Source of the DNA: a virus
Length of the DNA stretch: 53,450 nucleotides
IMG/VR virus record: IMGVR_UViG_3300036851_000134
Coordinates: 1 to 53,450 of that record
Reading direction: 5' to 3' (one strand)
Shown: positions 18,811 through 53,450 of the stretch, piece after piece
Layout of the letters: each line of letters opens with the position of its first letter
Numbering within the stretch: position 1 is the first letter of the stretch
Translations under genes and position numbers: made by a program
The notes under the pieces: model-generated
Databases searched by the model: none
What the model was told of the DNA's origin: nothing
What the model saw: the letters and a program-made list of their open reading frames with translations, nothing else

Positions 18811-18839
18811 GGTTATTCGCCGCCATAGTAGGTAAAGTT

Positions 18840-21092: not shown

Positions 21093-21134
21093 GCGGCGAA
21101 CATTCTGACCACTGACTGAGTTTACGCTGTATTT

Positions 21135-21941: not shown

Positions 21942-21966
21942 TGTGTCCTTTGAGTTTGAGGTTTGC

Positions 21967-22335: not shown

Positions 22336-22356
22336 TTTGTCCTTTTGGTTTTGTGG

Positions 22357-22596: not shown

Positions 22597-22958
22597 GGTT
22601 TGTCCTTTTGGTTGAGCGCAGCCCGGATACGGGCGCGCATTTGTTCTCGTTTCTGTTTCCGTTGGTACATTACGACCGTCGCTTCCTTGGCTAGCGCAGC
22701 CGCGTGCGACTCGGAAAGTTTGCGCGCGGCCTGATCCACGTTGCGCCGCGACACACTTGTTGCGCACGGTTCCGCGAACAGGTCAGCGAGTGCGCGGTGG
22801 TATTCGCCAAGGGCGCGATCAATTTCGCGCGCACAAAGATCGAGTTCGTTGGCATAGCGTGGCGGGTGCGGTTGTTTCATCTGCTCCAGCGTGTAAGGCT
22901 CCTTGGGCAGCAAAGACGCCACCAAAGCGCGCCGTGCGCGTTGTTGTTTAGGATTCAT
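22590..22958 (-). CDS. Helical basic protein
   Basis: 122 residues from ATG 22958 at an ATGA overlap. Arg/Ala-rich helices (for example QAARKLSESHAAALAKEA), basic C-terminus (QRKQKREQMRARIRAAL). Possible nucleic-acid binding; no family recognised. Confidence 0.55.
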   Translation of the reverse strand: MNPKQQRARRALVASLLPKEPYTLEQMKQPHPPRYANELDLCAREIDRALGEYHRALADLFAEPCATSVSRRNVDQAARKLSESHAAALAKEATVVMYQRKQKREQMRARIRAALNQKDKPC

Positions 22959-23164
22959 TTCAGGAAATCCTTTGCGCGTTCCACGGAAAGTGTTGTGGAA
23001 TCGCTGTAAAATTCCACGTCTGGCACAACGATTGTGCCGCCGATGCTGTTGGAATTCATGACGAGATGACCAGCTTTGACGGGTTGAACGTAGGTCAGGA
23101 TGCAACCGCGCCATTTGCCTGTTTTGACGGTGACGGCCTGTCCGATGGAAGGTTCAGTGTTCAT
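22955..23164 (-). CDS. 69-residue beta-rich protein
   Basis: MNTEPSIGQAVTVKTGKWRG then CILTYVQPVKAGHLVMNSN: KOW-like or SH3-like strand pattern (GQ.V.V..GKW.G). Starts directly after an AAAGGACAAC linker site. Function unknown. Confidence 0.55.
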   Translation of the reverse strand: MNTEPSIGQAVTVKTGKWRGCILTYVQPVKAGHLVMNSNSIGGTIVVPDVEFYSDSTTLSVERAKDFLK

Positions 23165-23196
23165 GTTGTCCTTTCTCCGCTCGCGCGGGCGTCGAA
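23161..23196 (-). promoter_or_regulatory. Hairpin/ribosome-site linker copy 1
   Basis: On the minus strand a GC hairpin (GCCCGCGCGAGCGG) is followed by AGAAAGGACAAC and ATG. Degenerate member of a six-copy family in front of small genes. Confidence 0.65.
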
Positions 23197-23310
23197 GCCT
23201 TGACCGGACTCCCGTCCAACACCGTGGTAACTGCGCTGCCAGCGCACCGCGCCAGCTTTCTTCGCCGCGCGCACGAACCGGCGCCATGCGTTCTTCGTCT
23301 TCGTTTTCAT
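23161..23310 (-). CDS. 49-residue basic protein ending in linker sequence
   Basis: MKTKTKNAWRRFVRAAKKAG then AVRWQRSY, very basic. Its last residues (ARASGERTT) are encoded by the hairpin and ribosome-site linker before the next gene, so the linker is partly coding here. Confidence 0.5.
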   Translation of the reverse strand: MKTKTKNAWRRFVRAAKKAGAVRWQRSYHGVGRESGQGFDARASGERTT

Positions 23311-23345
23311 TCTCTTGTCCTTTCGTGCCCGCTCTCGCGGAGTCT
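23308..23345 (-). promoter_or_regulatory. Hairpin/ribosome-site linker copy 2
   Basis: CCGCGAGAGCGGGCACGAAAG then GACAAGAGAATG with the ATG of the 49-residue gene. The hairpin is CCGC/GCGG. Confidence 0.65.
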
Positions 23346-23350
23346 CGCGG

Positions 23351-23542
23351 TCATCGGTGTACAATCACACTGTGTGTAATGCGGGCGCGTGTTGCGGCGT
23401 ACACCCGAGCTTCTTCCGCTGTGCGAAACCATTGAGTGTCGTGATTTGGTTCCGCCACTGCATACCACGGCCACGCCGGGTCTGACGATTGCCACGTGGC
23501 AATCTTGCGCTCACTGATTTGATCAGGTTCCATCGTTTTCAT
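23351..23542 (-). CDS. 63-residue hypothetical protein
   Basis: Starts MKTMEPDQISERKIATWQSS after a linker copy; contains WPWYAVAEPNHDTQWFRTAE and EARVYAATRARI. Small alpha/beta protein, unknown. Confidence 0.55.
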   Translation of the reverse strand: MKTMEPDQISERKIATWQSSDPAWPWYAVAEPNHDTQWFRTAEEARVYAATRARITHSVIVHR

Positions 23543-23580
23543 TCTCTTTTCCTTTCGCGCCCGCTCTCGCGGGCGGTTGT
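23540..23580 (-). promoter_or_regulatory. Hairpin/ribosome-site linker copy 3
   Basis: Full copy: CCGCCCGCGAGAGCGGGC followed by GCGAAAGGAAAAGAGAATG. Stem CCCGC/GCGGG with a 4-base GAGA loop. Confidence 0.75.
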
Positions 23581-23742
23581 TCACGCACTAAACACAGTTT
23601 GTTTTCCGGGTGAGGTTTCGAGCGCGAATCGCCCATTGATCCTCTGGCGAATATGCGTCCAAGTGTTGCCTCGTTTTTTGTTGGCCGCCGCCTGCCTCTT
23701 TGCCGCGGTCAGACTCTTATAGTTGTCCCAAGTCGTCTTCAT
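23581..23742 (-). CDS. 53-residue basic protein
   Basis: MKTTWDNYKSLTAAKRQAAA then NKKRGNTWTHIRQRINGRFA: helical, basic. Starts behind a linker copy (GGAGAAAGGAAACA). Unknown function. Confidence 0.5.
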   Translation of the reverse strand: MKTTWDNYKSLTAAKRQAAANKKRGNTWTHIRQRINGRFALETSPGKQTVFSA

Positions 23743-23771
23743 TGTTTCCTTTCTCCTGCTCGCGCGGGGGA
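23740..23771 (-). promoter_or_regulatory. Hairpin/ribosome-site linker copy 4
   Basis: Degenerate copy: CCCGCGCGAGCAGGAGAAAG followed by GAAACAATG. Confidence 0.6.
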
Positions 23772-23773
23772 GT

Positions 23774-23814
23774 GATTGCTCCCGCGTCCCCACCGAGGGG
23801 ACGAGGGAGCAATC
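23774..23814. other. Long perfect hairpin between small genes
   Basis: GATTGCTCCC (23774-23783) pairs with GGGAGCAATC (23805-23814), and GTCCCC (23786-23791) with GGGGAC (23797-23802), with a 2x2 internal loop. There is no U-tract on either side. It lies in the 77-base gap between two minus-strand genes and could be a processing or stability element. Confidence 0.7.
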
Positions 23815-23819
23815 TACTA

Positions 23820-24077
23820 TTATTCACAGCGCAATTCAGCGGGGTTACAGTCCACGTCTCGAATTGCGAGGAGCATTCCTGGGGTTCGTGGGGCTGATGC
23901 CCTGCGTACAAATGAATCGATGGCCTCCCGCTCAGTGCAAAAAAATTGCCCATCGCAAAAAAACGGCTTGCCGTGCGGGTGATTCGCACCAAACCGAAGT
24001 ACCTGCACGTGCCCGATTTCTGGAGTGATATTATACCACGTCGCATTGCCTTCCCGCGATTGAATCTCTGCTTTCAT
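23820..24077 (-). CDS. 85-residue hypothetical protein
   Basis: MKAEIQSREGNATWYNITPE then IGHVQVLRFGANHPHGKPFF. The mid region FFCTEREAIDSFVRRAS is helical. Starts directly behind a full linker copy. No family recognised. Confidence 0.55.
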   Translation of the reverse strand: MKAEIQSREGNATWYNITPEIGHVQVLRFGANHPHGKPFFCDGQFFCTEREAIDSFVRRASAPRTPGMLLAIRDVDCNPAELRCE

Positions 24078-24117
24078 TGTTGTCCTTTCGTTGCCCGCTC
24101 TCGCGGGCGGTTGTTCA
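24075..24117 (-). promoter_or_regulatory. Hairpin/ribosome-site linker copy 5
   Basis: Full copy: AACAACCGCCCGCGAGAGCG then GGCAACGAAAGGACAACAATG; almost identical to copy 6, 358 bases away. Confidence 0.8.
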
Positions 24118-24435
24118 CGCGATTTGTTCGAGTGCGAGCGAAACGGCGTGCAGCGCGCCGTGTGGAGCGCCGTAGTTCCGCCACTGCGATCCATGATTTT
24201 TTAACGCGCAGGTCACAGTCGCGTAGCCATTCCAGTACTGCACAGTGCCCGAGACGTGCAGCGCGCCGTATCCGCACTTTTCTGCGCCCTCAGTCACATC
24301 TACGCCCTCCGTCCATTCGGGTGTGTAGCGTTGGTCGCGCCCCGCGTTGAGGATTTTTTCCGACGCGCGCTTGATCCTGGCCTGCGTCTTGAGCGGGCTG
24401 GCTTCGCCGGTGAATTTGATCTCTCCGAGTTTCAT
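24115..24435 (-). CDS. 106-residue hypothetical protein, first gene of minus operon
   Basis: MKLGEIKFTGEASPLKTQAR opening, then an alpha/beta body with GYGALHVSGTVQYWNGYATVTC. Promoter-proximal gene of the minus-strand block, preceded by a linker copy; unknown function, and by position probably expressed early. Confidence 0.6.
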   Translation of the reverse strand: MKLGEIKFTGEASPLKTQARIKRASEKILNAGRDQRYTPEWTEGVDVTEGAEKCGYGALHVSGTVQYWNGYATVTCALKNHGSQWRNYGAPHGALHAVSLALEQIA

Positions 24436-24476
24436 TGTTGTCCTTTCGTTGCCCGCTCTCGCGGGCGGTTGTTGCC
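24433..24476 (-). promoter_or_regulatory. Hairpin/ribosome-site linker copy 6
   Basis: Full copy in the leader of the whole operon: AACAACCGCCCGCGAGAGCG then GGCAACGAAAGGACAACAATG. The stem could act as a 5' mRNA stabiliser. Confidence 0.8.
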
Positions 24477-24756
24477 TTGATCACACTCTAGCTAGTCCTT
24501 CCGCACATCGCAACAACTATTTCACTCTCCGCTCCATGTTTATTTCGCTCTCCCGCAACGCTTTGGCACCGCACTAGCTACTCTATCGTTAGAGTAATTG
24601 CTCGCATCCGCGCCCATCTACACATACCACCCACCTAGCTATCGCCCCGCTCAAGTCAATTTGTATCGTTAAAGTTTTCACGCGTATCTAACTCTCCTCC
24701 AACCTGTTGCACACTTCTACCTTGACTTTATCGTTATTCATTGGCATTCTCCCCAA
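24477..24756. promoter_or_regulatory. Divergent control region with repeated TATCGTTA dyads
   Basis: The gap between divergent operons holds three sites around TATCGTTA: 24581-24595 (ACTCTATCGTTAGAGT, a perfect 6-base dyad starting at 24580), 24664-24671 followed by AAGT, and 24729-24736 preceded by ACT. A consensus ACTYTATCGTTARAGT fits an operator bound by a dimer. TTGACT at 24722-24727 with CATTCT 17 bases on could be a promoter producing a near-leaderless mRNA for 24757. No gene is seen here. Confidence 0.6.
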
Positions 24757-37250: not shown

Positions 37251-37414
37251 GTGACGCACGCATGGCTGATACTTACCTTCTGTTGTTTTTAGTGTTCGGT
37301 GGTATTGCGGCGTATCGTACAGCTGGATTGAACGTGCTGTTTGTGTTTTTGGCATTGAACTGTTTATTGACGGCGATTTGTGCTGTGCGGCGCTGTGAGG
37401 AACGCAAAAAATGA
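37247..37414 (+). CDS. Two-pass membrane protein
   Basis: 55 residues from GTG 37247 (GTGA overlap); ATG 37262 is the alternative. Hydrophobic segments TYLLLFLVFGGIAAYR and LNVLFVFLALNCLLTAICAV with a basic tail. Function unknown; could anchor the cassette enzymes or act in lysis. Confidence 0.55.
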   Translation: MSDARMADTYLLLFLVFGGIAAYRTAGLNVLFVFLALNCLLTAICAVRRCEERKK

Positions 37415-38187
37415 TCCCGGCGCAAATTCACACAACGTTCGGGCTCGTGCCGGATTTCGGCGGCAAACCGTTTTCATTCATTCATTACGCGTGTGTGCTC
37501 AGTTGGGTGCGCGTGTTAAAGATGCCAGTGACGATTTACTCGGAGTTTTTTCCTGGGGAATCGGATAATTCGAATAAATGGTGGAACCTTACGTTACAGT
37601 TGCCAGGTGTTCATGCGTATTACGCCGGGATGCCGTTGTCGTTCAAACCTAAAATGACTCATTCAGCGCATCGTTCGGATTGGATGAGATTGCGTTGGTG
37701 CCTTGAACACGGTGGTATCGGTTTGGACATTGACGTTTTCGCGTTGCGCCCGTTGCTTTTTCCTCCGGCGGTAACTCCGATGCTTGGCCGCATCAACGGC
37801 GATTACGGTCTTTGCAATGCGGTCATGATCGCGTCCAAGGGCGATGAATTCATCAAACGTTGGGGGGAAGCATATTCATCGTTTAACCCTGCTGAATGGG
37901 ATGCTCATTCCGTCAGGCTCCCTGGGCAAATGGCCAAGTGGTGGCCGCATCTTGTGACCGTTCTGCCTGAGCACTACTTTTTTGAGCACGGTTGGGGTGA
38001 CGTTGGTCAGAAAGCGTTGTTTGAGGATGCAGAGCGCGAGCCGCATCCGGAGGCGATGCTGGCGCATCTGTGGCAGACTGCGACGTGGCCAACGCGCTTG
38101 GAACATCTGACTCCGGAAACCGTGCGGCAAGAGAAGGGGTTTGTGCAACGGCGCATCGTTAAACTCATCGAAGCGGAGGGATTATGA
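37411..38187 (+). CDS. DXD glycosyltransferase (Gly_transf_sug / OCH1-like)
   Basis: 258 residues. HRSDWMRLRWCLEHGGIGLD followed by IDVFALRPL is the DXD signature of sugar-binding-region glycosyltransferases (OCH1 and capsule types). GRINGDYGLCNAVMIASKG is the acceptor loop. It transfers a sugar from a nucleotide donor; the acceptor is unknown. It opens the carbohydrate cassette with ATGA coupling. Confidence 0.85.
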   Translation: MIPAQIHTTFGLVPDFGGKPFSFIHYACVLSWVRVLKMPVTIYSEFFPGESDNSNKWWNLTLQLPGVHAYYAGMPLSFKPKMTHSAHRSDWMRLRWCLEHGGIGLDIDVFALRPLLFPPAVTPMLGRINGDYGLCNAVMIASKGDEFIKRWGEAYSSFNPAEWDAHSVRLPGQMAKWWPHLVTVLPEHYFFEHGWGDVGQKALFEDAEREPHPEAMLAHLWQTATWPTRLEHLTPETVRQEKGFVQRRIVKLIEAEGL

Positions 38188-38294
38188 GCTATACCGACGC
38201 TATCGCAATTTCATTGATTCAGTTTGTCGTGTGGACTACGGCTGCAATTTTAGGCGGGATAACTGGTTACTGGTTGGCGAATCGCAAGAAATGA
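38184..38294 (+). CDS. 36-residue membrane peptide
   Basis: MSYTDAIAISLIQFVVWTTA then AILGGITGYWLANRKK: one transmembrane helix with a basic tail, overlapping both neighbours by 4 bases. Probably translated; role unknown. Confidence 0.6.
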   Translation: MSYTDAIAISLIQFVVWTTAAILGGITGYWLANRKK

Positions 38295-38899
38295 TCGATC
38301 GCACTTTCATTCTCACGCTCAAACGCGATACAGCGCGGTTGAACGCTACGCAATCGCACTTGCAAGAGCGCGGCATTGCGGCTGAACCGTTTTACGGCTT
38401 GGATCATCAGATCACCGGACTTTGGACGCGGCATTCGTATGAGGTTGACGTTGCCGGAAGCGGCTACAATCCGGGACCGAAACCGGCGAACTTGCACATG
38501 AGCCATTTCATACTGTGGAAGGCTATTGAGCTTTTGGGACAGTTTGAAACGTTCATGATCCTTGAGGATGACGTGCGATTTTCTTTGGAATGGCTGGCGC
38601 ACATCGAGCACGCCATGACGAACATGGATTCAGACTGGGACATTTTGTATCCCGGCTCGTGTTGTTGTATGGGACACGGCGAGAAACGGATCAGCGACCG
38701 GTTGTATTCCGTGTCCTACGCTCTTTGCACGCACTGCTACATTATCCGGCGCAAAGTGCTTCCGGTGTTGATTGAGAAATGCGAGCGCGTCTGGGGCAAA
38801 CTCGACATTGCAATGGCGCTGCATGTGTTGCCGCTTGTGAAGGCGTATGCGGTTTTGCCGCGTGTTGCGTGGCAAATGAACACACAAATTCCTCCATAA
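38291..38899 (+). CDS. LPS-type glycosyltransferase family 25-like
   Basis: 202 residues from ATG 38291. FILTLKRDTARLNATQSHLQ at the start and FMILEDDVRFSLEWL (ILEDD) match GT25 LPS glycosyltransferases. The middle part has GCCCMG-like Cys residues that may be structural. It would add galactose- or glucose-type sugars to a lipid or protein glycan. Confidence 0.8.
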   Translation: MIDRTFILTLKRDTARLNATQSHLQERGIAAEPFYGLDHQITGLWTRHSYEVDVAGSGYNPGPKPANLHMSHFILWKAIELLGQFETFMILEDDVRFSLEWLAHIEHAMTNMDSDWDILYPGSCCCMGHGEKRISDRLYSVSYALCTHCYIIRRKVLPVLIEKCERVWGKLDIAMALHVLPLVKAYAVLPRVAWQMNTQIPP

Positions 38900-38901
38900 A
38901 A

Positions 38902-39480
38902 ATGAAAGTTCTTGTTGGATGCGAATTTTCGGGAATTGTGAGGGATGCCTTTTTGCGTTTAGGTCACGACGCTTGGAGCTGCGATTTGCTTCCTTGTGAA
39001 TCCGGAGGGCCACACATTCAAGGCGACGTTCGGGATGTGCTGGCTGACGTTTGGGAATTTGCAATTTTTCATCCGCCTTGTACGCATTTGGCTGTCAGTG
39101 GTGCGCGTTGGTTCAAGAACAAAGTGCGCGAACAAGCCGAAGCTTTGGATTTCGTGCGTTTACTGCTCGACGCACCAATCTCACATATCGCCCTCGAAAA
39201 CCCGGTCAGTGTTATTTCGTCTAAAATCCGAAAGCCCGACCAGGTGATTCAGCCATGGATGTTTGGGCACGGCGAACAAAAGGCAACGTGCCTCTGGCTT
39301 AAAAATCTCCCGCGTCTCACGCCGAGCAGCATCGTGGAGGGCAGGGAGCAACGAATTTGGAAAATGCCTCCAAGTGCTGACAGGTGGAAAGAACGTTCTC
39401 GAACTCTGCCGGGTGTGGCTACTGCGATGGCAAACCAGTGGACGTTCGCAATGCGTCCAAACACGCAAATTCCGTCATGA
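38902..39480 (+). CDS. DNA cytosine-methyltransferase-like enzyme
   Basis: 192 residues from ATG 38902. MKVLVGCEFSGIVRDAFLRL (SAM loop), then the FHPPCTHLAVSGARWF motif with PC catalytic Cys, then HIALENPVSVI (ENP motif). This is a compact phage C5-methyltransferase-like family without a separate target-recognition domain. It should modify cytosine in DNA or, less likely, another substrate. It lies inside the sugar cassette. Confidence 0.75.
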   Translation: MKVLVGCEFSGIVRDAFLRLGHDAWSCDLLPCESGGPHIQGDVRDVLADVWEFAIFHPPCTHLAVSGARWFKNKVREQAEALDFVRLLLDAPISHIALENPVSVISSKIRKPDQVIQPWMFGHGEQKATCLWLKNLPRLTPSSIVEGREQRIWKMPPSADRWKERSRTLPGVATAMANQWTFAMRPNTQIPS

Positions 39481-39662
39481 AATTTGAACGTTTTGAATCG
39501 CCGTATCCGGTTTTTCAGCATGTGCGAACTGGTCGCACGGTTCATGTGCGTCCGTCGCCGATGCACGCGGGTTGGTGGTTACTCGCGCCAAACCCGGGAT
39601 TTACGGTTTACCAGAAGGTGCGAACTCGCGTGTTGCGCAAGGATTGGAGGCGGATCAAATGA
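39477..39662 (+). CDS. 61-residue hypothetical protein
   Basis: MKFERFESPYPVFQHVRTGR then TVHVRPSPMHAGWWLLAPNP: small beta protein, basic C-terminus. ATGA overlaps on both sides tie it to the methyltransferases. Confidence 0.55.
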   Translation: MKFERFESPYPVFQHVRTGRTVHVRPSPMHAGWWLLAPNPGFTVYQKVRTRVLRKDWRRIK

Positions 39663-40249
39663 CGAAGGTTGACGGATACCAATCGTTACCGGGTTGGTTC
39701 GATTTTCACGATCTTTATCAGCGTGCTGTGGATGAACATTGCTCCGGTGCGCCCGGCGTGTTCATCGAGATCGGGACGTGCTTCGGTAAGTCGGCGTGTT
39801 TCATGGGTGAACGCATCGTTGCGAGCGGTAAGCAGATCTCGTTCTTTACCGTGGACACGTTCGATTTTGACACCGTTGAAGCGTCGATTCGCGAGGTTGC
39901 GTTGAGTCAGATTGCCCAAGGTAACGGCAACACGTTTGAAGGTGTGGCGCGGCATTTCATCGAGGCGTGCGGGTTGAAAGATGTCGTTCATCTGCTCGTT
40001 GAGTCATCTGTTGAAGCGGCGTCTCGGCATCAGGAGAAATCGGTTGATTTCGTGTTCATCGATGGCGCGCATGATTACGATTCTGTGAGAGCGGACATTT
40101 CCGCGTGGTGGCCGCGGTTGCGCCAGAATCGTTGGATGGGCGGTCACGATTTCGGTATGGAAAGCGTGCGATTGGCTGTGCAAGACGCCTTTGCCGGTCA
40201 TCATGTGATGCAGGAAGGCGGATGCTGGACGGTGTTCAAACATGCCTGA
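39659..40249 (+). CDS. Class I SAM methyltransferase (Methyltransf_24-like)
   Basis: 196 residues from ATG 39659. GVFIEIGTCFGKSACFMGER (SAM loop), FFTVDTFDFD, then DFVFIDGAHDYDSVRADISA (FIDGAHDYxxVxxDI signature of sugar- and small-molecule methyltransferases). Its cassette setting suggests methylation of a sugar. Confidence 0.8.
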   Translation: MTKVDGYQSLPGWFDFHDLYQRAVDEHCSGAPGVFIEIGTCFGKSACFMGERIVASGKQISFFTVDTFDFDTVEASIREVALSQIAQGNGNTFEGVARHFIEACGLKDVVHLLVESSVEAASRHQEKSVDFVFIDGAHDYDSVRADISAWWPRLRQNRWMGGHDFGMESVRLAVQDAFAGHHVMQEGGCWTVFKHA

Positions 40250-40817
40250 TCTTGCTCCAATATTCGCGCAGCATTACGCTACGGATTGGCAGGGTTGCTC
40301 AGGCCCGGGCAGCAAACCAGAGAATGCGTGGCCGTATTTGGATTGGTTGAAACGGTTTGCGGTTCGGCAACCTTACGTCACGCGGTGGGTTGATGTTGGG
40401 TGCGGCGATCTTGGTATTTACCACGGTAAACCGCTCAATTGGTTTCATGTGCCATCGAATTACACCGCGATTGATTTGGTAGACGTGACGCCGCCGGGTG
40501 CAAAGCGCATGATCAACTTCGTGCAGGGTGACGTGCGCGAGATCAAACCGGAGGCGGACATTGCGATTGTTAAAGATGTGATCCAACATCTGAGCCACAA
40601 AACCGCGTTGGAACTGATCGAAGCGTTGAAAGGGTGCAAGACGCTCGTGTTGGTGAATGACTGGGACAACCGCGCGCCGATGAACAACATTGGGATCCAG
40701 GACGGCCAATGGTCTATGATCGATCCGGCGAGTGCGCCGTTCAACTTGCCCGGTAACTGTGAGATCGTTTATCGTAGTGTGCCATTCTACAAGATGGTTT
40801 ACGTTGTGACACGATGA
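40242..40817 (+). CDS. Class I SAM methyltransferase
   Basis: 191 residues. WVDVGCGDLGIYHGKPLNWF (SAM loop), AIDLVDVTPPGAKRMINFVQ, IVKDVIQHLSH: minimal type-11 methyltransferase of a phage type. Overlaps the previous gene by 8 bases. Substrate unknown. Confidence 0.75.
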   Translation: MPDLAPIFAQHYATDWQGCSGPGSKPENAWPYLDWLKRFAVRQPYVTRWVDVGCGDLGIYHGKPLNWFHVPSNYTAIDLVDVTPPGAKRMINFVQGDVREIKPEADIAIVKDVIQHLSHKTALELIEALKGCKTLVLVNDWDNRAPMNNIGIQDGQWSMIDPASAPFNLPGNCEIVYRSVPFYKMVYVVTR

Positions 40818-40996
40818 CTGCCAATCAAAAACGGGAGTTTATTAGGACGCTTCACAATGAAACCGCGGAAAGGTTGGAATCAGCCAGGAAAAACAAAGTC
40901 ATCTTGGATGCGACCGATCATAACCAGTTGATTTGGTGTGTTGCTGAGGAAGTGACGCTTCGTAACGTCTTAGCGATACTGGAGAAGCCTGAATGA
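40814..40996 (+). CDS. 60-residue helical protein
   Basis: MTANQKREFIRTLHNETAER then LESARKNKVILDATDHNQLI: helical, ATGA overlaps. A common phage small protein pattern; unknown function. Confidence 0.55.
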   Translation: MTANQKREFIRTLHNETAERLESARKNKVILDATDHNQLIWCVAEEVTLRNVLAILEKPE

Positions 40997-41268
40997 ACAC
41001 GCGCATGTTTCTGAACCGAATTTTTACCGGCATTTTGGCGGTCATCGGGATTCTGCATTGGAGATTGATCAAGGCCGGGATTCGGTTGGGCTTCGTGGCG
41101 CAAGTGCCGAACCCAAACTGTGTTTGGTTGCAAAAAGTATCTGGTGTGTGGTTCGTTAGGATCAGAGGTGAATGGACATTGCTGGATATGGACCGGACGC
41201 CGCCATCAGCCGGGTACGGTACGGAGTTTGATGATATAGAAGGAAAATGGGTTCGTAACAGACGATGA
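40993..41268 (+). CDS. Membrane protein with C-terminal beta domain
   Basis: 91 residues. N-terminal segment FLNRIFTGILAVIGILHWRL then amphipathic and a short beta-rich end (VWFVRIRGEWTLLDMDRTPP). Single pass predicted. Role unknown. Confidence 0.5.
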   Translation: MNTRMFLNRIFTGILAVIGILHWRLIKAGIRLGFVAQVPNPNCVWLQKVSGVWFVRIRGEWTLLDMDRTPPSAGYGTEFDDIEGKWVRNRR

Positions 41269-41378
41269 CTTTTCCCGCTCCAATCGGTTTCGTGAAAAGC
41301 GTTTCAAAGACGTTGAGTGAAATGCTATTTGCGCTGCTAAACCTCCGATTCGCCCGGCGCTTGTGCGTCCAGGGGTGA
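41265..41378 (+). CDS. 37-residue peptide
   Basis: MTFPAPIGFVKSVSKTLSEM then LFALLNLRFARRLCVQG, ATGA overlap with the gene before; amphipathic/basic, unknown. Supported only by coupling and operon position. Confidence 0.45.
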   Translation: MTFPAPIGFVKSVSKTLSEMLFALLNLRFARRLCVQG

Positions 41379-41396
41379 GAGCGGGATTATTTAACT

Positions 41397-42401
41397 ATGC
41401 CTGAAGTCGTAACAGAAAAGGTGCCGCCTACGAAATTGACAGTCGTTTACCAAACGTGCCGTCGCGAGCCGATGGCGCAATGGTTCTTTGATTCGTTGAA
41501 TCGCGAGTGCGGCGGCGACTACTCAAACATTAAGATTGTTGTCGTCGATTTCTGGTGTCAATACGAACCCGAACGTACCCAGAGCTATTACGCGAAATTC
41601 TGGTATTCTGTGCCGGTGATTGTTCCGCCGATGGGCAATGTGTGGCAGGGCAAAGAGCGATTGACCAAGGACGAGTATTTCGCCGCGGCGAACTCCCGGA
41701 ACACAGGGATTTGCCATGCGCTCGACGGTTACATTGCGTTTGTGGACGACATATCTGTTCTGATGCCGGGTTGGTTGAATCAGATTCATGAAGCGATGGC
41801 TGGCCATTGGATTGCGTGCGGTGCGTATCGGAAGGTAAACAAGCTCGTGGTTGAAAACGGCGAAGTCAAATCGTTAGAGAATCATCCGAGCGGTTGGGAT
41901 TGTCGTTGGCGCGGTGGTATCCCGATGACACCGCAACCGTGCGGCGGCGGCGATATGTTCGGTTGTTCGATTGCGGCTCCGGTGGAAGCGTTCCTTGGAA
42001 TCAACGGATTCGACACCGACGTGGATTCAATGAGCGGTGAGGACTACATTGCGGGCATCATGTTGGCGCAAGCCGGGTGGCATCTGAAATATTGCCGGAA
42101 GATGCTGACCTTCGAGAGCGAGGAACTGCATCACGTTGAACCGCCGTTGCGACGTATCATCAAAAAACATGTGCCCGGCAGAAGCAATTTTGGCGAAAAA
42201 GACGCAAGTCACGCGATCTTGAACATGGTCCGCGGCGGACGGCGAACGGCTCCGAACTATTACGGTCCTGGTGGATTGCGCGCCGTTCGTGAGCGTGTGC
42301 TTGCTGGCGAACCGATGCCTGTTTTGCGGGTGCCGGACAGAGATTGGCGCGACGGTCAGTCTTTGGTTGGGATGGGTAAAGATAACGATGGTTGTCCATG
42401 A
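41397..42401 (+). CDS. GT-A-fold glycosyltransferase (family 2-like)
   Basis: 334 residues. LTVVYQTCRREPMAQWFFDS start, then NSRNTGICHALDGYIAFVDD (with IAFVDDIS as the DxD-like acid site), GCSIAAPVEAFLGINGFDTD and DSMSGEDYIAGIMLAQAG (ED acceptor motif). Typical of GT2-like phage or capsule glycosyltransferases. The donor sugar is unknown. Confidence 0.82.
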   Translation: MPEVVTEKVPPTKLTVVYQTCRREPMAQWFFDSLNRECGGDYSNIKIVVVDFWCQYEPERTQSYYAKFWYSVPVIVPPMGNVWQGKERLTKDEYFAAANSRNTGICHALDGYIAFVDDISVLMPGWLNQIHEAMAGHWIACGAYRKVNKLVVENGEVKSLENHPSGWDCRWRGGIPMTPQPCGGGDMFGCSIAAPVEAFLGINGFDTDVDSMSGEDYIAGIMLAQAGWHLKYCRKMLTFESEELHHVEPPLRRIIKKHVPGRSNFGEKDASHAILNMVRGGRRTAPNYYGPGGLRAVRERVLAGEPMPVLRVPDRDWRDGQSLVGMGKDNDGCP

Positions 42402-42526
42402 AAAAGTTAATCGAAGAGATACTGAGTTCAAACATTGCAACGCAAGTTGTCATTGTGATTACTTCCATACTGATCGCAACTTTCGTTTTGGTTGTGATTC
42501 GGTTATTTGCGAAAATGTGGGGATGA
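42398..42526 (+). CDS. 42-residue membrane peptide
   Basis: MKKLIEEILSSNIATQVVIV then ITSILIATFVLVVIRLFAKM WG: one transmembrane helix, ATGA overlap with the glycosyltransferase. Similar in layout to the other membrane peptides of this cassette. Confidence 0.6.
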   Translation: MKKLIEEILSSNIATQVVIVITSILIATFVLVVIRLFAKMWG

Positions 42527-42527
42527 A

Positions 42528-42686
42528 ATGAGCTTCGATAAATCCAAAGGGCGCGTCATCATTTACTGTGACGATTGCAAAGGACCAATCTACGGTTCTG
42601 CGCATGTTCGCGGTGGCAAGGTGCGCTGTGAAACGTGTCTCGTGCGCGCGTTGAACCGTAAGAAAAGCGAGCAAGACGATGGCTAA
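42528..42686 (+). CDS. Zinc-ribbon peptide
   Basis: 52 residues. IIYCDDCKGPIYG and VRCETCLVR give two Cys pairs, one zinc site. It overlaps the next gene by 8 bases. A small zinc ribbon of unknown role. Confidence 0.6.
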   Translation: MSFDKSKGRVIIYCDDCKGPIYGSAHVRGGKVRCETCLVRALNRKKSEQDDG

Positions 42687-43257
42687 AGTTGCGCTCATAC
42701 TTTGCGGCGGATCGCAGACTCGCTGGGGCAACGATACGCCCAAACAGCTCATGCCTGTGCTGGGCGAAACGTTGGTTGAACGTGTGTCGCGTCAGGTGCG
42801 CGCGATCGGGTTCACGCCGTTGATCGTTGGGCCGAAGGACGTGTTTGGTTCGCACGGTAGTTGTTTGCCGCATGGGAAAACGATTACCGATAGCATTGAC
42901 GTTTCGCGCAGGTTTTTCGAGGATTGCACGGTTGTGTTGTGCGGCGACGTGGTTTGGGGCGACGGTGCAATTGGCCATTTGGCAAATGACGGTGCGCAAC
43001 GATCGGTTCTTGGTTCGGTGTTTACGGCTGAAATATTCGGGATGTGCTGGAACCATTGCATGGGTCCCGACAAAGGCCAGCTTGAACACGCCGCACGGCA
43101 TGGCGGTCGGTTGTGGCATCTTTACCGGCTGATGATCAATCAACCGATCGATAAGCATGTTTGCGACTTGTCGCTTTGGACGGAGATCAACGACGGGTTC
43201 ACTCAGGATTTCGATCATCAAAACCAATACCAAGAATGGACAGCGAAACATCAATGA
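42679..43257 (+). CDS. Nucleotidyltransferase (sugar-nucleotide/MobA-like)
   Basis: 192 residues. VALILCGGSQTRWGNDTPKQ then LMPVLGETLVERVSRQVRAI is the GG..R....PK.LMPV.GE signature of NTP transferases. VVLCGDVVWGD is the second acidic site. It may make the activated sugar (or CMP/CDP sugar) used by the nearby transferases. Confidence 0.8.
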   Translation: MAKVALILCGGSQTRWGNDTPKQLMPVLGETLVERVSRQVRAIGFTPLIVGPKDVFGSHGSCLPHGKTITDSIDVSRRFFEDCTVVLCGDVVWGDGAIGHLANDGAQRSVLGSVFTAEIFGMCWNHCMGPDKGQLEHAARHGGRLWHLYRLMINQPIDKHVCDLSLWTEINDGFTQDFDHQNQYQEWTAKHQ

Positions 43258-43850
43258 TTCTTTGTTCGTGCGTGCTTCCAACCCGAGGTAATCCGGAGGG
43301 TGTAGCGCGATTGTACTATTCGTTTTTGTCTCTGTTTGATTTGGGCAGGATCGAGCTGATTTTACGGATTGATGACGATGACGTTGATGGATACAAACCG
43401 TTGCTGGAGCAATATCCGGAGATAAGGGTTATACCCGGCCCTCGCGAGTCCGGGTATGAGTCATTGAATCATTTTTATGAAGCTCTCGCGCGCGCGTCTC
43501 TTGGCAAATGGATTTGGTTTCTGGACGATGACGTGTATTTTGAGGGTCCAAATGTTACAGAGGTTCTTGAGCGAGTTCCTACTGATGGGACATTTATCCG
43601 GCCACAGCATTATCAGTTGAATGAGTCCATGTATCAGAATTGCGCTTATGGCCCGTTCCCGATGGTTCCAAATAAGTTTTGGGAACAGTTTTCAGACTTC
43701 AATTTCCCGCAACCGATTGACGATCACATTCACAGTTTTTTAATGAGCAAGGGATGGGTAATCCGGTATCTTCCAAACGTGACAGCGGTTCACGATCGGT
43801 CTCGGGACAAGTTTCCGCTTCCTCGGCCAGCGTGTAATGAAAGACATTAA
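43254..43850 (+). CDS. GT-A glycosyltransferase (family 2-like)
   Basis: 198 residues from ATG 43254 (ATGA). CSCVLPTRGNPEGVARLYYS start, RIDDDDVDGYKPLLEQYPEI, and KWIWFLDDDVYFEGPNVTEV with DDD metal site. The C-terminal His-rich part (IDDHIHSFLMSKG) is a possible acceptor loop. Short for the family, catalytic core only. Confidence 0.78.
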   Translation: MILCSCVLPTRGNPEGVARLYYSFLSLFDLGRIELILRIDDDDVDGYKPLLEQYPEIRVIPGPRESGYESLNHFYEALARASLGKWIWFLDDDVYFEGPNVTEVLERVPTDGTFIRPQHYQLNESMYQNCAYGPFPMVPNKFWEQFSDFNFPQPIDDHIHSFLMSKGWVIRYLPNVTAVHDRSRDKFPLPRPACNERH

Positions 43851-44667
43851 ACAAGTCGAAAAGTTCTGGAACGAGCATCCGTGCAATGTCCGGCATCGGT
43901 CGCCTTCTGATTGGACGTGGACAGAAGAGTCTTTCAGGATGGTTACGATGAGGAAATATTTCGTTGAACCGCACATTTTGAGATTTGCAGATCACAAGCG
44001 GTGGAAAGGCAAAACTGTGCTTGAGATCGGATGCGGGATTGGAACTGATGCGGAACAATTCGCTTTGGCTGGAGCAGAGGTAACGGCATTGGATTTGTCA
44101 CGGAAAAGCCTTGAAATTTGTTTGGAACGATTTCGAATCAACAGACAGAATGGATTGTTTTACAGAGGTAATATCGAGGATACCGATGTTGTTCCGGTTC
44201 AATTTTATGATTTGGTGTATGCGTTTGGCGTGTTGCATCACACACCTGATCCGGTTCGCTCGATTGAGAACATCAAGCGTTACATGGGGCCGCATTCTGA
44301 GTTGCGCATTATGCTTTACAGCAAGTGGTCGTGGAAAAGCATTGCGATCGGGTTGCGTCATTGTTGGTGGTGTCCGTGGCATTGGCGGAAGGCAGTTGAG
44401 AATTACTCGGAAGCGGCGACTGGTTGTCCGGTAACTCATCTTCATTCGTTCGCTGATATTCGGTTGTTGCTGAAAGATTTTGAGATTGTTCGAATGTGGA
44501 AGGATCACATTTTCCCGTATTCGATCGATCATTACCGGCAATACGAGTATCTGAAGGTGTGGTATTTCAGGTGGTGTCCACGCTGGCTTTTCAAGAAACT
44601 GGAAAGTGTTCTTGGCTGGCACACACTGGTAATTGCGAAACTGAAAGAAAACCATGTTGCTCACTGA
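43837..44667 (+). CDS. Class I SAM methyltransferase
   Basis: 276 residues. An N-terminal FWNEHPCNVRH motif, then the SAM loop TVLEIGCGIGTDAEQFALAG and ALDLSRKSLEICLERF, and VYAFGVLHHTPDPVRSI. This long methyltransferase family with FW..hPC is common in cyanophages and sugar-modification loci. Confidence 0.85.
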   Translation: MKDIKQVEKFWNEHPCNVRHRSPSDWTWTEESFRMVTMRKYFVEPHILRFADHKRWKGKTVLEIGCGIGTDAEQFALAGAEVTALDLSRKSLEICLERFRINRQNGLFYRGNIEDTDVVPVQFYDLVYAFGVLHHTPDPVRSIENIKRYMGPHSELRIMLYSKWSWKSIAIGLRHCWWCPWHWRKAVENYSEAATGCPVTHLHSFADIRLLLKDFEIVRMWKDHIFPYSIDHYRQYEYLKVWYFRWCPRWLFKKLESVLGWHTLVIAKLKENHVAH

Positions 44668-45349
44668 ACGATTCAAGCTGGAGATTCAATCGCACGTTCT
44701 GGCGTTGCAAGGATGGTGTACGCCGGAGAAAGCGTGGCGGTTGGCGGAACTGATCCTGGACAATCGGTTGCAATGGGCTGTGGAGGTTGGAATTTTCGGT
44801 GGGCGCTCGATCATTCCTATGGCTCTTGCGATGCGCGAACAGAATTACGGCAGGGTTTACGGGCTTGATCCGTGGGACGTTGCGCACGCCACCGAAGGCG
44901 AGAATGGCGATGAACAAACTAAATGGTGGACGACGCAGGTGGACCTTAAATCTATCCGAACCGGGTTCGAGGCGCATGTGTTGCGTCACGGATTGCTCGA
45001 ATGGTTGCATTGGTTCCCGGTTGGCAGCATTGAAGGCGAGGGATTGTTTCAGGACGGTTGGGCGAACTTGGTCCATGTGGATTCCAATCATTCGGAATTG
45101 ACCAGTTGCAGGGACATTCGGCTTTGGTCACGGAAACTTGCTCCAGACGGGTTCCTTGTGTTTGACGATTTGGATTGGCCGTCGCAACAGCGAGCGATTG
45201 CCATTCTCAAGTCTGAACTGGGTTTCGAGTTGATTGAAGATTACGGGTCATGGGGCGTGTTCCGCAGGCCATCGCGCCGTCCGGACCCGATTGTTTATGC
45301 CGCTACCAACGAAATTATTGGCGTTCAAACGCCTGATCAAAGCGTATGA
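44654..45349 (+). CDS. Class I SAM methyltransferase (Methyltransf_24-like)
   Basis: 231 residues. WAVEVGIFGGRSIIPMALAM (SAM loop), YGLDPWDV, LVHVDSNHSELTSCRDIRLW (sugar-methyltransferase-like D.NH), FLVFDDLDWPS. Overlaps both neighbours; methylation of a sugar hydroxyl is likely. Confidence 0.8.
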   Translation: MLLTERFKLEIQSHVLALQGWCTPEKAWRLAELILDNRLQWAVEVGIFGGRSIIPMALAMREQNYGRVYGLDPWDVAHATEGENGDEQTKWWTTQVDLKSIRTGFEAHVLRHGLLEWLHWFPVGSIEGEGLFQDGWANLVHVDSNHSELTSCRDIRLWSRKLAPDGFLVFDDLDWPSQQRAIAILKSELGFELIEDYGSWGVFRRPSRRPDPIVYAATNEIIGVQTPDQSV

Positions 45350-46667
45350 CGATGGCGTCAGCATCGAAGAATTGCGCCGTCAACGTGATGATCTCGAACA
45401 GCACGTTAAGAAGCTCCAAGCTGAATATGAGGAGCACCTTAACACGGTGCGGTTTGAGCGTGATCAAATAGATTTTCAACTGAACGAATTTCGCGCTTAC
45501 GTGGAAGGAATTGTGAACAGTATCGATCGAGATATACCGAGTGTGACAGCGCAAAACGCGTGGCGCGCTGGTCTGTTCAACTTCGGCAAGGCGGTCAATC
45601 ATCCAGTGCCTGGGACGAGGTATTTCAATTGTTCGATCGTAGCGCGCCTTGATGGCGATTGGTTGATTGCGCGCAAGTCTGCGCCGTTTCCTCGTGTTGA
45701 AATCGGCAAGAATTCAATCGCAGCGTTCAAGATTCAGAACGATTTCTTTCGTAAACCACCGGAACAACGGGAGAGCGCACCGGCGTTGTTCACGATGATT
45801 CATTGCGCATTTCAAGAGCGGTATTCCGATGAGCACTTCGAAGATCCGCGTGTGTGCGTGATGAACGGGCAGGTTTACATTTCATGCACGAACTTTCAGT
45901 TGAGCGACAAAGGACGCTGGCGAGGTAGCCATCAAGTGTTGGTTGAGGTCGATGATCTTTGGCGATCGCGGCGTATGTGGCATCCGGTGTTTGGAGGAAA
46001 CCAAGGATCGCCGTATCTCCAGAAATACAACGAAAAGAACTGGTTATGGTTTTGGCATGAGGGCGAGATTTACATGGTTTACATGACGGTGCCGCATCGT
46101 GTTGTGCACATGAACAAGTTCATTGATCTGATCAAAGTTTACGAAACGCCACAGCGCAATCCACTTTGGAAAGCGGGTGCGCCGCGTGGCGGGACTCCGC
46201 CTGTCCGCGTTGGTGACGAGTATTTCAGTTTTTTCCATTCGAGCACGGCATGGATCTGCAACAAACGCAGGTACCACATGGGCGCGTATGCGTTTGAAGC
46301 GAAACCACCGTTTCGCATGACCAAATGCACGACGTTACCGCTGTTGAGCGGTAGCAAAGATGATCCGCCGTTTAACGGGCTCGTGCCGCCTGTGCCGACG
46401 ATACCGCTTTGCGTGTTCCCGGGTGGCGCAATTTATCGTGATGGTAAATGGATTGTGGTTTATGGCGTGAACGATTTCACAAGCGGTTGGATCGAGATAC
46501 CGCACGTTGATCTGTTGAACTTGATGCGTCCAATTGGTGAAAATGATGTGCATGGCGAAGAAATGGTGATGACAAATCAAGCTGGCATACCGCTGGACGG
46601 AAACGGACTGTCGACAAAAGGCGCTCCGATATTTGCCAACCCACCGGCAGAAGGAGTGAAAGCATGA
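45297..46667 (+). CDS. GH130-like beta-propeller glycosidase/phosphorylase
   Basis: 456 residues from ATG 45297; the start is uncertain because it lies inside the preceding gene with no good ribosome site. An N-terminal coiled coil (EELRRQRDDLEQHVKKLQAE) precedes propeller blades: EDPRVCVMNGQVYISCTNFQ, GAPRGGTPPVRVGDEYFSFF, MGAYAFEAKPPF and VFPGGAIYRDGKWIVVYGVN, typical of GH130 mannoside phosphorylases. It may remodel a mannose-type glycan. The end couples by ATGA to the tiny-gene array. Confidence 0.75.
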   Translation: MPLPTKLLAFKRLIKAYDDGVSIEELRRQRDDLEQHVKKLQAEYEEHLNTVRFERDQIDFQLNEFRAYVEGIVNSIDRDIPSVTAQNAWRAGLFNFGKAVNHPVPGTRYFNCSIVARLDGDWLIARKSAPFPRVEIGKNSIAAFKIQNDFFRKPPEQRESAPALFTMIHCAFQERYSDEHFEDPRVCVMNGQVYISCTNFQLSDKGRWRGSHQVLVEVDDLWRSRRMWHPVFGGNQGSPYLQKYNEKNWLWFWHEGEIYMVYMTVPHRVVHMNKFIDLIKVYETPQRNPLWKAGAPRGGTPPVRVGDEYFSFFHSSTAWICNKRRYHMGAYAFEAKPPFRMTKCTTLPLLSGSKDDPPFNGLVPPVPTIPLCVFPGGAIYRDGKWIVVYGVNDFTSGWIEIPHVDLLNLMRPIGENDVHGEEMVMTNQAGIPLDGNGLSTKGAPIFANPPAEGVKA

Positions 46668-46714
46668 AAACCGAAACCGTTCAAACCGCAATCGCCGGAG
46701 GCCATAGACCATGA
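46664..46714 (+). CDS. 16-residue leader peptide of the linker array
   Basis: MKTETVQTAIAGGHRP, ATGA overlap with the GH130-like gene. Its last residues GGHRP are encoded by linker copy 1, whose ATG starts the next gene. Confidence 0.5.
   Translation: MKTETVQTAIAGGHRP
46695..46713 (+). repeat. Linker copy 1 (ribosome site + start)
   Basis: CCGGAGGCCATAGACCATG. Same core as the other copies: GGAGGA/C, CATAGACC or CACAAGCC, start codon. Confidence 0.85.
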
Positions 46715-46914
46715 ACGAAGCAGGCTGCGCCCACGGTTCCGCTCTCCTCGATTGCAAGATGCAGATAGTCGAACTCCTTCACAACGCCAATGACGAGGAA
46801 TTGGCCGAATGCGATGTAAACCTCTACAATGCGCTGATCGAACACCCGGATGTAATGGAGCGAATGGGTGTGAAGCCCCACAACGACCAAGACCACGGAG
46901 AACACAAGCCATGA
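46711..46914 (+). CDS. 67-residue protein ending in linker tail
   Basis: MNEAGCAHGSALLDCKMQIV then ELLHNANDEELAECDVNLYN: helical, acidic. The C-terminal NDQDHGEHKP comes from linker copy 2. Unknown. Confidence 0.6.
   Translation: MNEAGCAHGSALLDCKMQIVELLHNANDEELAECDVNLYNALIEHPDVMERMGVKPHNDQDHGEHKP
46891..46913 (+). repeat. Linker copy 2
   Basis: Core CACGGAGAACACAAGCCATG, variant with CACAAG in place of CATAGA. Encodes DHGEHKP at the end of the gene before. Confidence 0.85.
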
Positions 46915-47228
46915 GACAAAATGTGCGCGGAGAATTTCCAAGACTGTCAGGCGACTGTATCGACGACCGGGAGCGTTCGCTTCCAACCTCTTTCTGCCCG
47001 ATCTGTCGCTACGAGATGGATTCGGCGACCTGTGTGGAAAAAGAGCTAGCTGAGCCAAGCGCAGGCGACCTGTCCGTCTGCCTCAACTGTGGTGAGCTGC
47101 TACAGTTCAACGAAATCCTTGTGCTGAGGCTGCTGCCGACGACACAACGCGCTGACATCGATGAGGAAAGCCAAAAACTGTTGACCCGCGCCAGCGAGCT
47201 AATCCGAAAACGAGGGCGCATTCACTGA
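46911..47228 (+). CDS. Zinc-ribbon protein
   Basis: 105 residues. FCPICRYEMDSATC and CLNCGELLQFNEILVLRLLP give two Cys pairs and a beta ribbon, followed by a helical acidic end. Not followed by a linker at its stop, but linker 3 lies 5 bases beyond. Confidence 0.6.
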   Translation: MRQNVRGEFPRLSGDCIDDRERSLPTSFCPICRYEMDSATCVEKELAEPSAGDLSVCLNCGELLQFNEILVLRLLPTTQRADIDEESQKLLTRASELIRKRGRIH

Positions 47229-47232
47229 GACC

Positions 47233-47255
47233 AACCACAGAGGACACAAGCCTTG
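47233..47255 (+). repeat. Linker copy 3
   Basis: Core CACAGAGGACACAAGCCTTG with TTG start. Confidence 0.75.
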
Positions 47256-47300
47256 AATAGCGAATACAATTCCAACCAGGCGAAAACACCAACAACATGA
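47253..47300 (+). CDS. 15-residue peptide with TTG start
   Basis: TTG AAT AGC ... ACA TGA from linker copy 3 (GAGGACACAAGCC TTG); the stop overlaps the next ATG. Possibly a ribosome bridge more than a protein. Confidence 0.35.
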   Translation: MNSEYNSNQAKTPTT

Positions 47301-47470
47301 AAAGCAACTCAATCAAACGCACCGATGAAGAAACAGACGAACTGCTCAACAAGTGTAGTGACCAGGAGAACAAAGGCGGGAGCAAATACCCAGGCATGAC
47401 TTATGAGCAGGGAATACAAGCTGGCATCAGTTGGCTGCTTGGTTACGCCGACGAAAATCCATTGGAGTGA
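47297..47470 (+). CDS. 57-residue conserved phage protein
   Basis: MKSNSIKRTDEETDELLNKC then GGSKYPGMTYEQGIQAGISW LLG: KYPGMTYEQGI..GI.WLLG is a common short phage motif of unknown function. Confidence 0.65.
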   Translation: MKSNSIKRTDEETDELLNKCSDQENKGGSKYPGMTYEQGIQAGISWLLGYADENPLE

Positions 47471-47554
47471 CTAGCCTTATCTGTCCTCATGTGCCCCCTA
47501 GAGTACCACCCGTTCGCATGAAACAAGAGCCTCGCCAGGACCAAATCACCATCG

Positions 47555-47575
47555 CCACGGAGGACATAGACCATG
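47555..47575 (+). repeat. Linker copy 4
   Basis: CACGGAGGACATAGACCATG. The HGGHRP frame upstream is open but has no start codon, as if a gene was lost here. Confidence 0.85.
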
Positions 47576-47791
47576 ACACCAAAAGCACTTGCCAAAATAC
47601 CTGCACCGTCTGAATGGATAGTGACGCGCACGATAAGGGAAACCTACGGAGCAGTTGGGCGCACCCGACAGGAAGCAATCGCGTGGGTAAACGAACGATC
47701 TCCCGAAGCCGACACGGTGACAATACTTACCGAGTCCGCAAAGAAAGTGCGAAGCTCGAACGATCAGGACCATGGGGGACATAGACCGTGA
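47573..47791 (+). CDS. 72-residue cassette protein (MTPKALA type)
   Basis: MTPKALAKIPAPSEWIVTRT then EAIAWVNERSPEADTVTILT. Preceded by linker copy 4; ends NDQDHGGHRP from linker copy 5. Its first seven residues and DNA are the same as the gene at 48246, while the rest differs. Confidence 0.65.
   Translation: MTPKALAKIPAPSEWIVTRTIRETYGAVGRTRQEAIAWVNERSPEADTVTILTESAKKVRSSNDQDHGGHRP
47768..47790 (+). repeat. Linker copy 5
   Basis: CATGGGGGACATAGACCGTG with GTG start. Synonymous changes keep DHGGHRP. Confidence 0.85.
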
Positions 47792-48003
47792 CAACACCAG
47801 CAACAACGTGCCATTTCTGGCAGGGTTTGTGCGGCTACAAAGCTGTTGCCGAAGTCAAGCAGCGCAACGGGAAGTGGAAGCCAATCTGTGGCCAACATCT
47901 CGCCGGATTAAAAAAACGCAAACCGCCATCGTGGATACCCGAAACCCGAATGCTGCCGAATGAGGCGCTACAGCGCCAAGACCACGGAGGACATAGACCA
48001 TGA
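47788..48003 (+). CDS. 71-residue zinc-finger cassette protein, GTG start
   Basis: GTG 47788 overlaps the stop (GTGA). CHFWQGLCGYKAVAEVKQRN then WKPICGQHLAGL: Cys/His likely zinc-binding, related to NrdR-like/small ribbon patterns. Ends QRQDHGGHRP (linker 6). Confidence 0.6.
   Translation: MTTPATTCHFWQGLCGYKAVAEVKQRNGKWKPICGQHLAGLKKRKPPSWIPETRMLPNEALQRQDHGGHRP
47980..48002 (+). repeat. Linker copy 6
   Basis: CACGGAGGACATAGACCATG; the most consensus-like copy together with copy 4. Confidence 0.9.
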
Positions 48004-48176
48004 GTGATGAAAGGGTCATAAAATCAGCACGATTCAATTACTTCGGACAAAAGCTATTGGTAGACATCGGCTCCAATGGCTCTATTCGATTTAAAATCGG
48101 AGACTCCAACGTGCAACTTTCAGAGTCTGAATTTAAGTCATTGATGCGATTATATTGTCAGGACGCCGCGAACTAG
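48000..48176 (+). CDS. 58-residue cassette protein
   Basis: MSDERVIKSARFNYFGQKLL then VDIGSNGSIRFKIGDSNVQL and a helical end. Starts with linker copy 6; lacks a linker tail. Unknown. Confidence 0.6.
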   Translation: MSDERVIKSARFNYFGQKLLVDIGSNGSIRFKIGDSNVQLSESEFKSLMRLYCQDAAN

Positions 48177-48192
48177 CGTTCGATGGCGCAAT

Positions 48193-48249
48193 GTGACCTG
48201 CAAGAAATGCCTGAGCCACTGTAAAAAACACGGAGGCCACAAGCCATGA
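48193..48249 (+). CDS. 18-residue zinc-knuckle peptide/remnant
   Basis: GTG opens VTCKKCLSHCKKHGGHKP, whose tail is linker copy 7. VTCKKCL resembles the start of phage zinc-finger proteins, so this may be a truncated gene fused to the linker. Confidence 0.35.
   Translation: MTCKKCLSHCKKHGGHKP
48226..48248 (+). repeat. Linker copy 7
   Basis: CACGGAGGCCACAAGCCATG, followed by ACACC.AAAGCACTTGCC as in copy 4. Confidence 0.85.
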
Positions 48250-48545
48250 CACCCAAAGCACTTGCCGAAATACTCGCGAAACACGGCGTCATTGATCGTC
48301 ACGCGGTAGAAGACCCGGAAGGATACGACGGCGGCGCGACCATGCTTTATGTCTGGTCGGCGGCGGACGAGATAACGGAACTCGCGCGTGAGAAATGCCA
48401 ATGGAGCGAGGACGGGAACGGCGCGCACGAAACGCAGTGCGGCCAATGCTTCGAGTTCACGCACGGCGGCGTCCAGGCGAACGGATTGAAATACTGCTGC
48501 TTCTGTGGTGGTGCGATAGTGATCAAGAACTATGAACTGGTTTAA
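48246..48545 (+). CDS. 99-residue zinc-ribbon cassette protein (MTPKALA type)
   Basis: MTPKALAEILAKHGVIDRHA, then CQWSEDGNGAHETQCGQCFE and YCCFCGGAIVIKNYELV: two Cys pairs give a ribbon at the C-terminus. Follows linker copy 7. Overlaps the next gene by 14 bases. Confidence 0.65.
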   Translation: MTPKALAEILAKHGVIDRHAVEDPEGYDGGATMLYVWSAADEITELAREKCQWSEDGNGAHETQCGQCFEFTHGGVQANGLKYCCFCGGAIVIKNYELV

Positions 48546-53235: not shown

Positions 53236-53450
53236 ATGAAAGAAAACGCTCATGGTTATTACGGTCGCGCCAAGGGAATGAAAGCGACTAATCCGATGGA
53301 TTCCATGATGAAAAACTATCCGTCAACGGGTCATGCGACGAAGCCCGCGCCGAACATGACAGCGGCGGATTTGAGAGCGGCAGCGGCCAAGAAACCGTAT
53401 CGATCAAAGAAGATGGTGGCAGGCTGGCGTTCGATGGGGTTGGGTTCAAC
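53236..53450 (+). CDS. 5' part of split small basic protein
   Basis: ATG 53236 opens MKENAHGYYGRAKGMKATNP and continues across the contig end to the stop at 149; 78 residues in all. Basic, Met/Lys-rich. See the entry at 1-149. Confidence 0.8.
   Translation, partial: MKENAHGYYGRAKGMKATNPMDSMMKNYPSTGHATKPAPNMTAADLRAAAAKKPYRSKKMVAGWRSMGLGS
53324..53450. repeat. Terminal direct repeat, copy 2
   Basis: Identical to 1-127. See copy 1. Confidence 0.95.

Follow-up and report, generated by a model that had tools for sequence, protein, structure and literature searches.

The 53,450-base viral record analysed here (the window) carries an array of tiny genes that is quite probably a cluster of accessory genes in a tailed phage: copies of one start-linker, which spread inside the cluster, chain short genes that are unrelated to one another. 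The linker is 21 nt long (consensus CAC GGA GGA CAT AGA CCA TGA) and occurs seven times between 46694 and 48249, all on the + strand and far above chance. Each copy would provide a strong Shine-Dalgarno (SD) sequence, a fixed spacer and a start codon overlapping the preceding stop, so that ribosomes ending one small gene, or newly binding the linker, could begin the next one, which would amount to coupled translation. The copies would have been made by duplication and by short-homology or illegitimate recombination within the cluster, sometimes carrying neighbouring coding sequence along. The HGGHRP tail would mostly be what the linker spells for any upstream gene that runs into it in the TGA-terminated frame, and it may be mildly selected.

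The linker array and its translation signals

The linker copies are the following:

46694..46714, + strand: copy 1, GCC GGA GGC CAT AGA CCA TGA; ends a 16-codon minigene and starts gene 1
46894..46914, + strand: copy 2, CAC GGA GAA CAC AAG CCA TGA; gene 1 tail and gene 2 start
47236..47256, + strand: copy 3, CAC AGA GGA CAC AAG CCT TGA; tail not in the frame of gene 2, TTG starting a 15-codon minigene
47556..47576, + strand: copy 4, CAC GGA GGA CAT AGA CCA TGA; tail frame without a start codon, gene 4 start
47771..47791, + strand: copy 5, CAT GGG GGA CAT AGA CCG TGA; gene 4 tail and GTG start of gene 5
47983..48003, + strand: copy 6, its 21 nt identical to copy 4 (22-nt exact match); gene 5 tail and gene 6 start
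48229..48249, + strand: copy 7, CAC GGA GGC CAC AAG CCA TGA; tail on an orphan fragment, gene 7 start

Each copy contains an SD-like ribosome site of the GGAGG type (GGAGG-equivalent positions 46697, 46897, 47239, 47559, 47774, 47986 and 48232), and in 7/7 copies the TGA stop overlaps the next start (ATGA, GTGA or TTGA), the start codon combining the third base of the preceding sense codon (A, G or T) with the TG of the stop. All seven copies that a preliminary description had reported, each with a ribosome site and a start, were thus recovered, and the synonymous changes it had listed between copies (CAC/CAT, GGA/GGG, CCA/CCG) are real. A degenerate form of the linker, GGAGGMCAYARRCCATG, matched seven sites (46697-48248), on the + strand only, and nowhere else in the 53,450-base record at up to two mismatches. 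A degenerate 17-mer at up to three mismatches gave 8 matches where 0.94 were expected (shuffled sequences reached at most 3), a strict 19-mer gave 4 matches against 0.01 expected, and the reversed linker pattern, run as a control on the same record, gave 0. Exact identity across copies ranges from 6 to 22 nt, the longest being that of copies 4 and 6.

Quantification of the duplex energy with the anti-SD (16S tail) revealed a mean of -8.4 kcal/mol at the seven linker starts when compared to 29 other starts (-2.9 kcal/mol) and random sites (-2.8 kcal/mol; p=0.0002), the 29 being first in-frame starts of mechanical ORFs and hence some of them wrong, with minus-strand genes using an AAAGGA motif of their own. 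The SD is clearly stronger in the array than at other starts. RNA structure that would hide the start sites was absent in most copies, and the start regions were not unusually folded. As a basis of the conservation, RNA structure and membership of a known RNA family were both rejected; the linkers have no stem-loop. The idea that each linker holds a promoter was not supported either, promoters near the linkers not being in excess over shuffles.

The genes and fragments of the array are as follows:

46664..46714, + strand: 16-codon minigene MKTETVQTAIAGGHRP, with start/stop overlaps on both sides
46711..46914, + strand: gene 1, 67 aa, ending NDQDHGEHKP
46911..47228, + strand: gene 2, 105 aa, zinc-ribbon-like; stops before the linker, without a tail
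47253..47300, + strand: 15-codon minigene MNSEYNSNQAKTPTT; TTG start (47253) from copy 3, stop overlapping the gene 3 start (47297)
47297..47470, + strand: gene 3, 57 aa, without a tail
47573..47791, + strand: gene 4, 72 aa; N-terminus MTPKALA as in gene 7, C-terminus NDQDHGGHRP as in gene 1
47788..48003, + strand: gene 5, 71 aa, Cys/His-rich, ending QDHGGHRP
48000..48176, + strand: gene 6, 58 aa, ending 52 nt upstream of linker copy 7
48177..48249, + strand: orphan coding fragment (...SVRWRNVTCKKCLSHCKKHGGHKP / ...VRWRNVTCKKCLSHCKKHGGHKP, up to the stop); an open stretch without a convincing start, ending at copy 7
48246..48545, + strand: gene 7, 99 aa; related to a gene of viral contig L054 in its N-half, and to phrog_10312 and Pseudomonas phage F116 in its C-half

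Genes 2, 4, 5 and 6 have coding scores close to zero, so not every ORF of the array is proven. The orphan fragment (48177..48249), for which a phage match search was negative, is probably the C-terminal remnant of a lost gene with a linker tail. The 15- and 16-codon minigenes (47253-47300 and 46664-46714), each joined by a stop/start overlap to the next gene, could be leader peptides for coupling.

Spread of the linker and histories of the linked genes

Particular copies resemble each other past the 21-nt unit. Downstream of copies 4 and 7, 22 of 24 bases match, running into genes 4 and 7, which for this reason begin with the same MTPKALA residues; no equal was seen in ~200,000 random pairs. 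Upstream, the match is 10 of 12 bases for copies 2 and 5 and 7 of 7 for copies 2 and 6, and covers the NDQD codons. This extra homology supports the reading that the linkers are homologous repeats that spread within this genome by duplication or recombination, several of them being duplicated DNA.

An Erf-like annealing protein is encoded at 19253-20365, and an exonuclease-like protein is also present in the genome. The Erf of phage D3 is about as proficient as Red at recombining diverged sequences, and minimal pairing segments are reported to measure 23-27 bp with Red-beta and 31-34 bp with RecA (PMC3945230). Since the longest exact match between linkers falls just below the Red-beta range, linker-to-linker recombination is borderline, being possible but likely to be inefficient. 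The earlier suggestion that the phage annealing protein could recombine such short homologies is supported in so far as such a protein is present, its role here being putative. Illegitimate events, with selection then retaining those that gave a working start, are also compatible.

Three linked genes (2, 3 and 7) have relatives dispersed among unrelated phages. Gene 2 has relatives in Microbacterium, Rhizobium and Gordonia phages, and full-length relatives of gene 3 occur in Parabacteroides and Microbacterium phages. Residues 4-45 of gene 7 match a gene in L054 (64%), whereas residues 44-93 match Pseudomonas phage F116-type proteins and phrog_10312; gene 7 is, on these matches, an intragenic mosaic. 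One F116-related protein matching its C-half is annotated as restriction alleviation. Searches for relatives of genes 1, 4 and 5 were negative. In L054, Parabacteroides phage PDS1 and Microbacterium phage ValentiniPuff, inspection of the start regions showed no linker. These dispersed relatives and their linker-free start regions suggest that the array genes have separate histories, and we infer that they were brought under the linker in this lineage.

A second array was not found in 2.9 million viral contigs (two pattern scans) or in ~85,000 genomes (one scan), which gave single sites only, mostly ordinary starts of unrelated genes, nor was one found when the fetched single-site loci were re-scanned at three mismatches. 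Two candidates, a recurrent viral-contig start (GGAGGACACAGACC-ATGAA(A/G)ATC) and an Edaphobacter start preceding a repeated gene, proved to be single sites outside any array. A distant DNA search of annotated phages with the array region gave no match, and the Erf-like protein and the terminase, used as queries, found no relatives. A search for the same boundary flanking different modules in different phages yielded no linker-bearing related phage in viral or genome contigs, among which this phage has no close relative. The preliminary description had proposed a search of related phages for the linker and had named a lack of linkers elsewhere as a refuting outcome; in the sets searched the outcome was such an absence, which is weak evidence, since a singleton phage cannot show exchange.

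A broader possibility is that the linker is dedicated homology for Erf-driven swapping of gene cassettes between phages. We hold this to be doubtful, though it is the best placed of the alternatives: an Erf-like protein, the tolerance of D3 Erf for divergence and the scattered relatives would all suit it, but the collections scanned hold no other array, homologues in other phages sit in ordinary linker-free junctions, and exact identities of 6-22 nt lie below the Red-beta minimum. Direct gain or loss of modules was not seen, no relative with the same linker having been found. Of the earlier idea that modules are gained or swapped through the linker, spread inside the genome and the scattered relatives of genes 2, 3 and 7 survive, but exchange between phages is unproven.

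The tail encoded by the linker

Read in the frame ending at TGA, 7/7 copies spell an HGGHRP-like tail (copies 1 to 7, each up to the stop: AIAGGHRP, NDQDHGEHKP, TNHRGHKP, HRHGGHRP, NDQDHGGHRP, QRQDHGGHRP and CKKHGGHKP). The tail is on a substantial gene only in copies 2, 5 and 6, which genuinely close genes of 67, 72 and 71 aa, and the tails are the only sequence that proteins 1, 4 and 5 have in common. Dual coding had been claimed for copies 1, 2, 5, 6 and 7; this was borne out for copies 2, 5 and 6, applies in copy 1 to the 16-codon minigene only, and does not hold for copy 7, where the preceding gene stops earlier (TAG, 48174-48176). Copies 3 and 4 spell the tail (NHRGHKP and HRHGGHRP) in frames without a start codon, so that conservation of the linker DNA extends to places where no tail is translated from it. 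Because the tail-bearing genes 1, 4 and 5 have no relatives, a tail-less ancestor cannot be demonstrated.

Copies 2 and 5 differ at nine bases, seven of which are third codon positions in the tail frame (binomial p=0.008), and among the changes inferred over all copies third positions account for 7 of 10 (p=0.02) or 8 of 11 (p=0.009), the copies being few and related, and one third position being also the first base of the start codon. This bias is suggestive only, and may lean slightly towards selection. The earlier alternatives of a tail kept as a passenger or for function are thereby tilted a little towards function, but copies 3 and 4 keep the DNA without a translated tail.

Selection could in principle be the main reason for the linker, with a functional peptide tag at the C-terminus (serving metal binding, targeting or stability) selected on unrelated small proteins and the linker DNA kept mainly for encoding it. 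We consider this unlikely. The third-position excess (7/9 for copies 2 and 5, ~7/10 over all copies) agrees with it, as do the three base changes of copy 5, all silent in the tail frame and two of them weakening the SD or the start, and the retention of the basic K/R, the second His and the final Pro in 7/7 copies. A tag would not, however, account for copies 3 and 4, which keep the same DNA where it is untranslatable as a gene tail, or for genes 2, 3 and 6, which belong to the same array and have no tail, and the changes are very few, from copy pairs that are not independent. Slightly less likely again is that the linker is selected in two frames at once, for the start of the next gene and for a functional C-terminal peptide on unrelated small proteins; if this were true, a gene captured between two linkers would gain both regulation and a common tag.

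Known systems and a second repeat family

As a chain of small genes joined by a start-linker that spread within the cluster, the array is an independent, unusually clear case of a known arrangement and no new kind of system. The ninR region of lambda was described as a 'chain of interlinked genes' (Kroger and Hobom 1982, as cited in PMC8022706), and ATGA overlaps are common to all lambdoid phages (PMC8022706). Lambda ninR was fetched for comparison: its junctions are mostly ATGA or GTGA overlaps that place the SD within the upstream gene, and similar short C-terminal ends (DRAA, REAA and SEAA, each directly before the stop) occur in several of its genes. The array likewise has packed small accessory genes, ATGA stop/start overlaps, the SD inside the end of the preceding gene and similar encoded C-termini, and the overlap of stop and start between consecutive genes (ATGA) that marks a ninR-type chain was found at all seven linkers. 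In contrast, ninR junctions share at most 9 nt exactly and the array linkers up to 22 nt, the encoded tail of the array is longer, and there are no homologous genes or sequence. Profile searches of the array genes gave no nin families, and position and phage type differ too. The array works like ninR but is no member of it. A single event of related character is known from the cluster I mycobacteriophage Island3, where the unrelated products of adjacent genes 67 and 68 have their 18 C-terminal residues, and ~50 bp of DNA, in common, which was put down to recombination at short boundary sequences (PMC3029335); the array has seven linker copies.

A second start-associated repeat family lies on the minus strand (15729-24480), with AAAGGA(C/A)AA just before ATG at ten starts (none on the plus strand; 0.055 expected). 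A GC-rich hairpin of the CCCGCGAGAGCGGG type sits immediately upstream of five of them (starts 24435, 24077, 23542, 23310 and 23164), and the longest exact repeats in the genome, the terminal repeat aside, belong to this family. Its presence favours the view that the + strand linkers are start-associated repeats belonging to accessory genes. That a preferred phage start sequence merely evolved separately at each start, without recombination, is very improbable: the linkers do sit exactly at starts and the minus strand does use a second, different motif, but the sequence shared by particular pairs runs beyond the translation signal into coding DNA on both sides, and two copies match exactly over 22 nt.

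The linker is an SD-core repeat at several unrelated gene starts in one orientation, as is the SAS of cluster K mycobacteriophages (SAS/ESAS), a short asymmetric SD-core repeat just upstream of many unrelated starts that measures 13 bp, occurs in 11-19 copies and lies 3-7 bp before the start across the right half of the genome (PMC3203893). SAS is also conserved beyond SD needs and sometimes holds the upstream stop, and some SAS copies have inverted repeats, as does the minus-strand family here. The array linker differs in its sequence (the SAS consensus GGGATAGGAGCCC is not matched by the linker consensus CACGGAGGACATAGACCATGA), takes in the start codon and occurs within 1.6 kb only. The PeSL cassettes of T4-type phages are, in the account cited in PMC4503421, short repeats with a regulatory role that lie between small early genes and are connected with module shuffling. 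By that account PeSL carry an early promoter, whereas the array linkers have no promoter excess nearby and no hairpin, and the PeSL pairing of an early promoter and a stem-loop with each repeat was not found at the linker. The minus-strand AAAGGA family, having a hairpin as that account gives for PeSL, resembles either the SAS/ESAS pair or PeSL cassettes.

Conserved sequences at module boundaries have long been proposed as a route to phage mosaicism and are rarely visible. With seven evident boundary repeats and a minus-strand set, this phage is a natural system in which to ask whether such start-associated repeats act in translation, in recombination or in both. Upstream of the array, at 37411-46667, lies a run of glycosyltransferase-like, methyltransferase and GH130-like genes. 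The record ends in an exact 127-bp terminal direct repeat (1-127 and 53324-53450), indicating that it is probably a complete genome, circularly permuted or circularised.
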